DNA from: Anaerofilum sp. An201
GTDB taxonomy: Bacteria > Bacillota > Clostridia > Oscillospirales > Ruminococcaceae
Assembly (NCBI RefSeq): GCF_002160015.1
Contig: NZ_NFJT01000007.1
Span: forward strand, 1 to 64,000
Length of the DNA stretch: 64,000 nt
Direction: 5' to 3'
Shown: piece by piece, positions 45,123 through 50,190 of the stretch
Position numbering within the stretch: the first letter of the stretch is position 1
Layout: each line of letters begins with the position of its first letter
The notes under the pieces: model-generated
Seen by the model: the letters and a program-made list of their open reading frames with translations, nothing else
Database searches by the model: none
Told to the model about the DNA's origin: nothing
Translations under genes and position numbers: made by a program

Positions 45123-45270
45123 AAGGCTTCCCCCTTGGGGGGAAGCTGTCGCCGCAGGCGACTGATGAGGGGAAAGCTGCCGGTATCCACAAACCCGCCG
45201 CAAACACGAGGGTTCTGTAAACCAAGCCCTGTGCAGACGGCACGGCTTCCCCTTCATCCGCCCGGCTTCT
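45123..45270. repeat. Dispersed repeat type B plus partial second copy
   Basis: 45123-45174: GGCTTCCCCCTTGGGGGGAAGC, stem GTCGCC-GCA-GGCGAC, then TGATGAGGGG and a tail with CCGGTATCCACAAACCCGC. 45231-45270: GTGCAGACGGCACGGCTTCC, then CATCCGCCCGG, matching the head at 50.02 kb. Fills the pheA-sdaAA gap. Confidence 0.85.
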
Positions 45271-48387: not shown

Positions 48388-48404
48388 CCCTCCCGCCCCT
48401 CTTC

Positions 48405-48430
48405 CCGGCCGGTCTCCGGCCGGTTTTTTT
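48405..48430 (+). terminator. Terminator of the glycosyltransferase gene
   Basis: CCGGCCGG-TCT-CCGGCCGG hairpin followed by seven T residues. Confidence 0.9.
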
Positions 48431-48490
48431 CGGCATCTTCCCACAACAATATTGCATAAAAACAGCACAAAAGTCTATGCACTTTGCCAA

Positions 48491-48519
48491 TAGACTTTCC
48501 CCCCTGCAAACGCTATAAT
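48491..48519 (+). promoter_or_regulatory. Promoter of the candidate large noncoding RNA
   Basis: TAGACT (4 of 6 to consensus), 17-base spacer, perfect TATAAT. It stands after the upstream terminator, so it must drive its own transcript. Confidence 0.7.
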
Positions 48520-48525
48520 ATAGAC

Positions 48526-49731
48526 AAAGGAAGACAAGGGAAAGCAAAAGAGAAAAGGAAACGATGTCAGGTTTCCCCAAAAGCCCAGCTTCCGCCGGAA
48601 GGATGCAAGATCAAAAGCTGTGGTTGGATCGCATCTGTGGAATGTGAACGGCAGATTTGGATCTGTGAGCTGGTATCGCAGAAAACGGATGTGCCGGCAC
48701 AAACAGCAGGCGAACAAAAACAGACGGATCGGCTCCCGAAGGTAGATCATGCAGAAAGAGGTGTGACCCGTGAACTTTGAAGAACCCGTTCAGTTTGCGC
48801 GGGTCCGCTGGTAAAAAAGAAACACGCACCTGCCATTGGCTGTGATTTCAGCCGGCTTATATAAAAGCAACCGTGCAGAATGGTTGCGAATGTTTCTGAA
48901 CCAGCTGGCCTGCGGGAAAAGAACCGAGATGTGGTGAAGCCCCACTGAAACAAAGGCCGGTAAATGTGACGAAACATGGCTGACCGGAAATATCAAAAAG
49001 CAAAAGGATCGCTGTTCTTTCCAAAAAGAAAGGCAGAAAGATCGGGTATGGAACCGGTTGGACACAAGAGGAACTTATAAGAAGATTTTTCACCGAAAGG
49101 TTTTTGTTTGCGCCTTGAAAAAGCAGAGCCACTGGAAAAAAAGTGGTTTTGCAAGGACAAAAAAGATTGCCAGCAAGCCAAATGGAAAGCCGGAAAGTAG
49201 GTTGTCGGCTGCACAAGATGGCAGTTTTGTTCCCCGCATGCGGATGGAAGACGGCTGAAAAAGAAGGTGCTTTCAGCAAAGGCACTTTGAAGGCGATCCC
49301 AAACGGAAAGGCAGAGCAACGATACAAAGGGTTTGGATGTGATGCGGCAAACCAGTGTTTGGAATGCCGAAAGAACCTGTACTGTGTTGGCAGCAAGCAA
49401 AAAACGGCACAATGTGATGTTGGCCGGAAAGAAAGTCATGTTCCCGTTTTGTTGACGGATACCGATAAAACCGTTTGATGTGATGTCAGAACGTGTTTTC
49501 CAATGCCCCTGTAAATGAAAATGAACAGGGAGACTTTGATAAAGAAGCGAGTCCAATGAAATAGCGTAATCGTCTCGCGCGAGAGCGATCCACCATTTCA
49601 GAAAGAAAGGTTTTGAAAGGCAGCTACTCCAATGTACTAATTACAGCTTGGATGTCTCCTACCGAACCAAGACAGACAATTGAATAGCAGCGGGGTGCCT
49701 GTCGGAACGTGCGGCAGGCGCCCCGTTTTTT
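48526..49731 (+). ncRNA. Candidate large structured noncoding RNA, about 1.2 kb
   Basis: A stretch bounded by its own promoter and a strong terminator, with no ORF that has a ribosome site or family resemblance. The plus strand is A-rich with short GC stems and is visibly poorer in GC than the flanking genes. I count at least fifteen short hairpins, among them GGAAAC/GTTTCC (48557-48576), GCAACC/GGTTGC (48867-48887), nested CCGGT/ACCGG with ATGT/ACAT (48957-48987), CCACT/AGTGG (49129-49146), CCCTGT/ACAGGG (49507-49530) and a TCTCGCGCGAGA stem (49569-49589). GAAAGGCAG occurs three times (49028, 49306, 49615). Size and texture recall ornate large RNAs such as OLE, GOLLD and ROOL, but I cannot match it to any. 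It lacks RNase P, tmRNA and SRP hallmarks. A 76-residue two-helix membrane protein follows at once. Confidence 0.6.
49691..49731 (+). terminator. Terminator of the candidate large RNA
   Basis: CGGGGTGCCTG pairs with CAGGCGCCCCG (one G-T), extended by three further pairs, then TTTTTT. Confidence 0.92.
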
Positions 49732-49764
49732 ACACAGGAATCTTTTATCCGGGAGGGATCGCTC

Positions 49765-49995
49765 TTGAACAGAGAACTCAGCCTGCTGCGCAGACTTTTG
49801 TATTTTGGGATATTCTGTGCAGGCCTTGCCCTGATCTTTTTCAACACATCCGCTATGATCGGCGGCTCCGGTTTTGACGGCATGACCGGCTCGTCCATCG
49901 CCGCAGACCGGCGCACCGTGTATATTTTCATCGCCCTGTTCGGACTGGTGAGCTATTTTGTGGAAATGGTGCGGGATTTCCTGCAGAAAAAATAA
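49765..49995 (+). CDS. Small two-helix membrane protein, 76 aa
   Basis: Unrecognised. Two hydrophobic helices, about residues 9-30 (RRLLYFGIFCAGLALIFFNT) and 50-68 (TVYIFIALFGLVSYFVEMV), are joined by a Gly/Ser/Met-rich loop and end in a basic tail (RDFLQKK). The start is TTG after GGGAGGGATCGCTC. It begins 34 bases after the terminator of the large RNA, so it may be expressed by read-through or have a promoter hidden in that end. A link with the RNA is speculation, prompted only by adjacency. Confidence 0.65.
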   Translation: MNRELSLLRRLLYFGIFCAGLALIFFNTSAMIGGSGFDGMTGSSIAADRRTVYIFIALFGLVSYFVEMVRDFLQKK

Positions 49996-50015: not shown

Positions 50016-50190
50016 GTGCAGGCGGCATGGCTTCGACCTCATCCGCCCCCTGTCGGGGGCACCTTCCCCTGCCAGGGGAAGGCTTTGGGTACCGTTGGCT
50101 TCCCCCTTGGGGGGGAAGCTGTCACGCGAAGCGTGACGGATGAGGGGGAGTCTCTCGGCATGCACGAATTCCCGCAAAAACATCCTTCCC
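50016..50190. repeat. Dispersed repeats types A and B in tandem
   Basis: Head GTGCAGGCGGCATGGCTTCG, type A at 50032-50083 (CCTCATCCGCC, CCCCTGTCGGGGG stem, CTTCCCC/GGGGAAG), joint GGTACCGTTGGCTTCC, type B at 50094-50152 (hairpin, then GTCACGC-GAA-GCGTGAC stem, GGATGAGGGGG), tail TCGGCATGCACGAATTCCCG. This is the fullest copy in the window. Confidence 0.9.

Follow-up and report, generated by a model that had tools for sequence, protein, structure and literature searches.

We report that the genome of Anaerofilum sp. An201 very probably encodes, as judged from comparative sequence analysis, a member of a class of structured RNAs that carry translated micro-ORFs. This new RNA class apparently spans at least two families of one order of gut bacteria, is apparently transcribed alone from its own promoter, and looks built for ribosome engagement at several points. 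To the whole statement, that the fold of this giant structured RNA, a member of a new class, is coupled to ribosomes engaged on a series of minigenes, we assign a probability of about 0.5, and the ribosome-gating mechanism that it includes we offer as a tentative proposal. The original prediction for this locus was of a structured noncoding RNA with its own promoter and terminator; large structure, promoter and terminator were all recovered, and it is the term noncoding that we would now withdraw.

The locus occupies positions 48491-49731 of the window, by which we mean the whole stretch of 64,000 nt that was analysed (Table 1). A TATAAT promoter at its front, a terminator at its back, an A-rich and lower-GC texture and a threefold repeat had each been claimed for it, and each is present: the terminator stem has 16 pairs as compared to the 14 claimed, GC and A contents are 0.476 and 0.323 as compared to 0.637 and 0.174 for the window as a whole, and GAAAGGCAG lies at 49028, 49306 and 49615 with no other plus-strand occurrence in the window, the third copy holding the Shine-Dalgarno of the two-codon ORF we call MY. 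The further claim that there is no credible protein gene survives for the longer ORFs, since the longest plus-strand ORF wholly within the locus (111 aa), the minus-strand ORFs of up to 187 and 179 aa and a 98-aa plus-strand ORF at the front had no Pfam match at E <= 0.01; it does not survive for the shortest, as a 15-codon ORF1 and two two-codon ORFs (49556-49564 and 49632-49640) are embedded there. The RNA of the window additionally contains five ATGTGA hexamers, in which a start abuts a stop (48642, 48964, 49337, 49412 and 49478), as compared to 0.41 expected, a count reached in none of 2000 base shuffles; by eye, only the second and third are preceded by a Shine-Dalgarno-like stretch.

Table 1. 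Positions of the features of the candidate RNA in the window
Feature	Positions	Strand	Remarks
Palindromic promoter element TCTATgcactttgccaATAGA, possible operator	48474-48494		19 nt upstream of the -10 box
-10 box TATAAT	48514-48519	+	followed by ATAGACA, conserved in the genus
Predicted stand-alone transcript, about 1.2 kb	48525-49731	+	from promoter, terminator, homologues and fold z
ORF1 Shine-Dalgarno region AGAAAGAGGTG	48753-48763	+	
ORF1 hairpin, GACCCG with CGGGTC	48758-48805	+	pre-start bases with bases about 30 nt into ORF1
ORF1, GTG start, MNFEEPVQFARVRW then stop	48770-48814	+	15 codons, stop counted
5' strand of a longer-range helix, from the 3' half of ORF1	48799-48812	+	pairs with 48900-48913
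Genus-conserved block TTGCGAATGTT...ACCAGCTGGCCTGC	48884-48913	+	its end is the 3' strand of the ORF1 long helix
Stretch with three GAAAGGCAG copies	49028-49623	+	
Two-codon ORF ATG-AAA-TAG (MK)	49556-49564	+	context GCGAGTCCA
Two-codon ORF ATG-TAC-TAA (MY)	49632-49640	+	context GAAAGGCAGCTACTCCA
ACAATTGAATAG	49676-49687	+	directly before the terminator
Intrinsic terminator	49689-49731	+	16-pair stem, then T run

The palindromic element at the promoter has one perfect match in the genome of the window. Of 40 homologues, 31 have it ahead of ORF1 at up to four mismatches to the consensus, and its arms often change together (TCTAT/ATAGA, TCCAT/ATGGA, TATAT/ATATA); among the 40 searched it was not found in G398, G396, G033, three genomes of genus g110 and three of g48. 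Genomes G000, G310 and G268 each hold one perfect site, the promoter of the candidate RNA itself, and respectively six, nine and nine sites with one mismatch, as compared to four, one and seven for a reversed control pattern. The element is possibly an operator, a function we infer, and the excess in G310, unlike the two other genomes tested, possibly reflects a small regulon. The promoter region also drew early blastn matches to G159 and G392 (L013 and L014), which were rejected as type IV pilin-like genes by eye; over 36 nt their promoter and the beginning of their leader are 89% similar to the Anaerofilum RNA at its 5' end. At the other end of the RNA, ACAA(C/T)TGAATA stands ahead of the terminator in 4/4 genomes of g1 and 3/3 of g110 and, on visual inspection, in the three loci of g165 (family f13); G396 of g31 has ACAATTGAAT, and the motif was not found in the remaining genomes searched of f1, the family of the window.

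The gene that follows the RNA differs by genus: it is a small ORF without Pfam match in the window and elsewhere, by Pfam, an HTH regulator, an Asp/Glu racemase or a UvrD helicase, or else, by eye, a NUDIX-like or GIY-YIG-like gene. No recurring partner protein was found in the flanks of 27 homologues, nor a conserved downstream gene among the homologue loci compared. Because the flanking genes vary in this way between genera, the RNA looks like a stand-alone transcript, and neither like a leader nor like a member of an operon that has a constant partner gene. We note that the small ORF right after the terminator in the window (49765-49995, TTG start, 76 aa) is membrane-protein-like by eye, and that an HTH regulator takes its position in Anaerofilum relatives. 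Between this ORF and a yqgF-like gene, at about 50035-50150, lies a GC-rich imperfect inverted repeat, and a similar stretch near 45130-45165 gives it, by eye, the looks of a dispersed repeat.

In Rfam 15 no family reached its gathering score in 48491-49731, and at E up to 5 over 48400-49800 there were two matches only (E 0.094 and 3.9), both at 48400-48438, the terminator of the preceding gene. The homologues gave weak sub-gathering matches that lie at terminators or outside the RNA; a T-box match in locus L204 (71.1 bits, gathering 93) was rejected and lies downstream of the hairpin match of that locus. The models of OLE, ROOL and GOLLD, presumably RF01071, RF03087 and RF02032, had no match at E up to 5 in 48400-49800 or in the homologues searched. 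The view that the RNA could not be placed in a known class was thus sustained, every Rfam family remaining below threshold in the covariance search, while the suggested likeness to OLE, GOLLD and ROOL holds for size and ornateness and finds no match to their models. Genes for GOLLD and ROOL often lie close to tRNAs. They are described as encoded in phages and prophages in the available part of PMC12286853; for the RNA of the window no similar phage or plasmid record was found, and the ORF1 pattern was not found in viral contigs. Other RNA genes lie nearby in some homologues, namely three tRNA genes in G027 (L057 1494-1727, about 300-550 nt upstream of the RNA on the opposite strand) and a 6S RNA gene in g97 (L103 2480-2672, G099), upstream of the candidate RNA and on the other strand.

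Homologues occur in ten genera of f1 (42 genomes examined) and in three genera of a second family, f13; the 42 f1 genomes relied on are those whose sequences were inspected by eye or by script. A DNA search of the genus (four genomes including its own) located the RNA in G002 and G003, and a search with the G002 RNA added G001, where it is cut by the contig end, and two other genera, represented by G033 and G027. Within these, blastn recovered it from 7/7 genomes of the genus of G027 and 10/11 of that of G033, the eleventh, G265, being matched by R1, a sequence-only model of ORF1. At E <= 0.01, R1 matched 77 genomes out of the 396 in the family; many of the weak matches are probably chance, and L102 is a protein gene. 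The 42 genomes have a common layout of promoter, ORF1, mini-ORFs (35/42) and terminator, and the size from promoter to terminator, estimated by eye, is about 0.35-1.4 kb, with most f1 members near 1 kb. The Anaerofilum genome holds one copy.

At the level of the order, the model R2 matched 7 of 394 genomes at E <= 0.001, four of them outside f1. In G689 (genus g216 of f13) its match shares the context around the start, GAAAGGGGTGAGTCCAATG, and has an ORF1 beginning MVTEE and a tiny ORF, MGQTA, directly before the terminator, and blastn with the G689 RNA found matches in 23 of 25 g216 genomes. R3, a covariance model of one hairpin domain of g216, matched 23 of 394 genomes of the order at E <= 0.01, namely eleven of g216, five of g138, three of g165, G466 and three false matches; across the class it gave G411 again only (1/167), and it matched no f1 RNA (best 15.1 bits, E 0.022, in L068). 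G466 (L204) has the hairpin alone and was left out of the homologue count, and L102, L153, L154, L156, L157, L205, L206 and L209, matched by R1, R2 or R3, were discarded as protein genes or chance on inspection. The ORF1 of f13 takes the forms MG(F/L/I/T)EESCFQ..., MVSESSYF... and MV(S/T)EIEQ(Q/E)F.... Only the layout, the surroundings of ORF1 and some short motifs connect the two families, and a shared origin of their RNAs is likely; the GGCCGATGGGC hairpin common to g216 and g58 is suggestive of homology. A further hairpin, CCGATGGGCATAC(T/C)GATG(A/G)GTATGG, is almost invariant over the three f13 genera (L158-L203, L207, L208); the CUGAUGAG within it is reminiscent of hammerhead cores, and no ribozyme family appeared among the Rfam matches of the homologues.

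Evidence for a large fold is strongest in g216. An alignment of 21 g216 sequences (A4) gave with RNAalifold a closed and ornate structure of 179 pairs in 33 helices, with 94.2% of cells paired. In it 49 pairs are changed on both sides, as compared to 18.3 +- 2.9 in shuffles, 0/500 of which reach 49, and to 8-24 in slid controls; derivation of the structure from this very alignment gives it an advantage over the slid controls, and relatedness among the sequences is not preserved by the shuffles. RNAalifold energies, judged against 20 column-shuffled controls in which dinucleotides are not kept, gave z of -22.1 for g216, -20.5 for g9, -17.6 for g58 together with G022 of g20, -11.4 for g25, -11.2 for g48, -9.3 for g110, -14.1 and -17.0 for two g31 pairs, and -7.5 for three sequences of g1. 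The RNA of the window without its terminator folds at -364.8 kcal/mol, a z of -3.67 relative to 40 dinucleotide shuffles (-324.7 +- 10.9); the antisense has z -1.88, and eight homologues range from -1.96 to -5.39. The middle of this RNA (about 49000-49500) aligns poorly with two full-length, shorter genus relatives, and since it is not shared with them the fold of the window RNA itself rests on the three sequences with z -7.5 and on energy. A large covarying secondary structure is shown by comparison for g216 and indicated more weakly, mostly on energy, for the genus of the window. A collection of homologues with a check of covariation had been proposed for this locus, and the homologues and the 49 double-sided changes are its outcome; conserved codons rather than covarying stems had been named as the contrary result, and both are seen, the stems covarying and the micro-ORFs conserving their start and stop codons.

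ORF1 stands near the 5' end across the homologues, with 14-29 codons. The f1 homologues share its start, its reading frame and a core resembling EP(V/I/G/K)(Q/H) (EEPVQ-like in this family), and all 43 homologues have a start, ATG in 42 and GTG in one, as picked by eye. Parts of ORF1 sit in helices. When the 16 nt before the start were paired with the ORF1 body in 43 homologues selected from the two families, the best partner strand of a hairpin began at +30 to +38 in 37/43 despite differing sequences, with arms such as GCGCAGACC with GGUCUGCGC, GUGAGUC with GACUCAC and GGUGAGUCC with GGACUCGCC; only 17/43 are individually significant at p<0.05 when compared with base shuffles, the mean z being -1.7 and p 0.053 for the window. 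The longer-range helix of the 3' half (48799-48812 with 48900-48913) has -27.0 kcal/mol, with -21.9 in G003 and -27.4 in G002, and is maintained in the three genus members despite substitutions. Counterparts elsewhere are a 26-pair helix in g216, between the 3' half of ORF1 and a strand several hundred nt downstream, and helices of 20 pairs in g25 (100% of cells paired) and 15 pairs in g58.

Farther downstream, most of the RNAs carry mini-ORFs of two to five codons, which in f1 are mostly of two or three codons. The filter used for them, a Shine-Dalgarno followed by CC(A/C/G)ATG, was written after the first examples had been seen and was run over 42 f1 genomes and G689 for up to 1400 nt, a stretch that passes the terminator in the shorter RNAs. 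It yielded 97 sites, or 70 after deduplication, and 51 of the 70 reach an in-frame stop after one codon (39) or two (12), as compared to 7/70 and 3/70 in the other frames (Fisher p 7e-23, kinship ignored). Genomes of one genus are not independent samples, and when each of the ten genera is represented by a single genome the figures are 18/24 in frame and 3 and 2 in the others (Fisher p 6e-8). As a control, occurrences of this motif in the flanks or on the opposite strand gave 1/26 in frame and 5 and 1 in the other frames. Both the inclusion of sites after the terminator and the failure of the MK ORF, which has a weak Shine-Dalgarno, to pass the filter work against the count of 51/70. At least one Shine-Dalgarno-led mini-ORF is present in 35/42 f1 genomes, with up to four in one RNA; the filter found none in the other seven, namely all three of g41, G099 of g97, G260, G398 and G384 (cut by the contig end), and no two- or three-codon ORF in G689.

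The window itself has two clear mini-ORFs only, one of which fails the filter, and the last of them lies about 50 nt before the terminator stem; the MK site reads ATG-AAA-TAG in G003 and ATG-AAA-CAG-TAA in G002 and was not found in G001 in the genus comparison. The second residue of the mini-ORFs varies among Y, C, H, W, K, Q and N. At orthologous sites of g58 the stop after TAC is TAG, TGA, TGA, TAA and TGA, and that after TGG is TAA, TGA, TAA, TAA and TAG; other sites, for instance in g110 and g48, keep a single stop codon throughout. The terminal ORF of g216, at the terminator, encodes M(E/K/D)IW(K/M/N), mostly MEIWK, in 17 of 22 sequences, always ends in TAA and has silent GAA/GAG and ATC/ATT changes. 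In g25, g58 and g9 the last mini-ORF has its Shine-Dalgarno paired with the nucleotides that immediately follow the stop codon of the mini-ORF before it. The pattern of start, one to few codons and in-frame stop indicates that the micro-ORFs are selected as ORFs, as far as sequence can tell.

These observations bear directly on the alternative that the RNA is a purely structural giant noncoding RNA of the OLE, GOLLD or ROOL kind, in which the blocks of Shine-Dalgarno, CCnATG, codon and stop would be RNA motifs that resemble ORFs. The strong covariation in g216 speaks for it, and as ORF1 and the mini-ORFs lie partly in helices the constraint on their sequences need not be coding. Structure by itself, however, does not predict in-frame stops at one or two codons despite differing codons, the exchange of TAA, TAG and TGA at orthologous sites, the silent changes in the g216 terminal ORF, or a distance from the ORF1 start to its Glu-Pro core that varies only in threes (9, 12 or 15 nt, a multiple of three in 14/14 representatives, with starts picked by eye), and we regard this alternative as unlikely.

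Alternatively, the RNA might be a polycistronic micropeptide mRNA, with the peptides, that of ORF1 above all, as its product and the rest as a structured mRNA body. An ORF1 peptide with a shared core across ten genera and the terminal pentapeptide of g216 would fit such a function; di- and tripeptides whose second residue varies are nevertheless improbable products, and a conserved fold reaching more than 500 nt beyond ORF1 would be unneeded, so that we think it quite improbable that the peptides are the purpose of the RNA.

A toxic role may also be considered, in which the RNA is a minigene toxin or peptidyl-tRNA sink that releases short peptidyl-tRNAs and slows growth, as do overexpressed two-codon minigenes in E. 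coli. Two-codon ORFs with a strong Shine-Dalgarno are reported to be the most toxic kind, and TGA and TAG stops less toxic, in the accessible part of PMC8708949; stops here include both TGA and TAG. The operator-like element would suit a need for controlled expression, but the single copy in its own genome comes with no recurring neighbour as a candidate antitoxin, and the fold would be left unexplained, which makes this a poor prospect. Finally, that the RNA is a very long leader, or attenuator, in which ribosomes on the last mini-ORF by the terminator permit readthrough into the downstream gene is very unlikely, for although in g25, g58, g9 and g216 that mini-ORF lies, by eye, only a short way from the terminator, genera differ in the gene that follows and in the window the last mini-ORF is about 50 nt ahead of the terminator stem.

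Returning to the reading of a giant structured RNA coupled to ribosomes on its minigenes, we can sketch how it might work. With the ORF1 start in a hairpin, its 3' half in long helices and the last Shine-Dalgarno paired, a ribosome on one ORF should open the next site, and with a stop following so soon after each start, ribosomes would recycle on the spot and not move through. A ribosome on ORF1 or on a mini-ORF would open the helix containing that ORF, the opening would free the next site, and the amount of initiating ribosomes might in this manner set the fold of the whole RNA, which could then sense initiation capacity or serve to park ribosomes, with translation shielding it from decay. 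In its strongest form, which we hold to be possible and somewhat doubtful, this would be the first known giant RNA class in which ribosomes on a string of ORFs of minimal length operate the global fold, where translating one opens the next Shine-Dalgarno, the RNA counts or parks initiating ribosomes and the peptides are by-products. Reports on two-codon minigenes, as given in the available part of PMC8708949, are that they act in cis and perhaps protect the RNA, and that with a strong Shine-Dalgarno they allow reinitiation without dissociation.

To find giant structured RNAs of a new class in common gut bacteria would be a rare event in itself. Conserved di- and tripeptide ORFs within such RNAs blur the line between coding and noncoding, suggest that two-codon ORFs, which annotation usually ignores, can be kept by selection across genera, and offer a concrete route to asking what giant RNAs do, with the ribosome as the obvious partner. 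Among the matches listed, in open-access literature only and within the accessible parts of PMC11109978, PMC8040213, PMC12286853 and PMC13009471, no described RNA or mini-ORF array of such kind was found.

The candidate RNA is of the same size class as GOLLD, ROOL and OLE and shares their ornate secondary structure, and the function of those RNAs is likewise unknown; they are not known to carry arrays of two- or three-codon ORFs. Ribosome-dependent leader attenuators such as those of trp and erm have a short ORF embedded in alternative helices, a trait common to both, and the candidate RNA is unlike them in that it has no conserved downstream gene and several ORFs in a chain. Many of its start sites have the potential to pair with the 16S tail beyond the core (AGAAAGGnGGTGAnTCC). 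Such pairing is shared with the aureus system as described in the available part of PMC13009471, where it concerns start sites in general, so that it does not explain the mini-ORF array. Parallels are also found in leader minigenes such as axe-txe mg2, LEE1 ler and ycbK, which, in the accessible part of PMC8708949, likewise consist of a Shine-Dalgarno, a start, one codon and a stop, and for which ribosome occupancy in cis is proposed; they stand singly or in pairs before a protein gene, whereas the RNA described here has up to four and no fixed protein gene.
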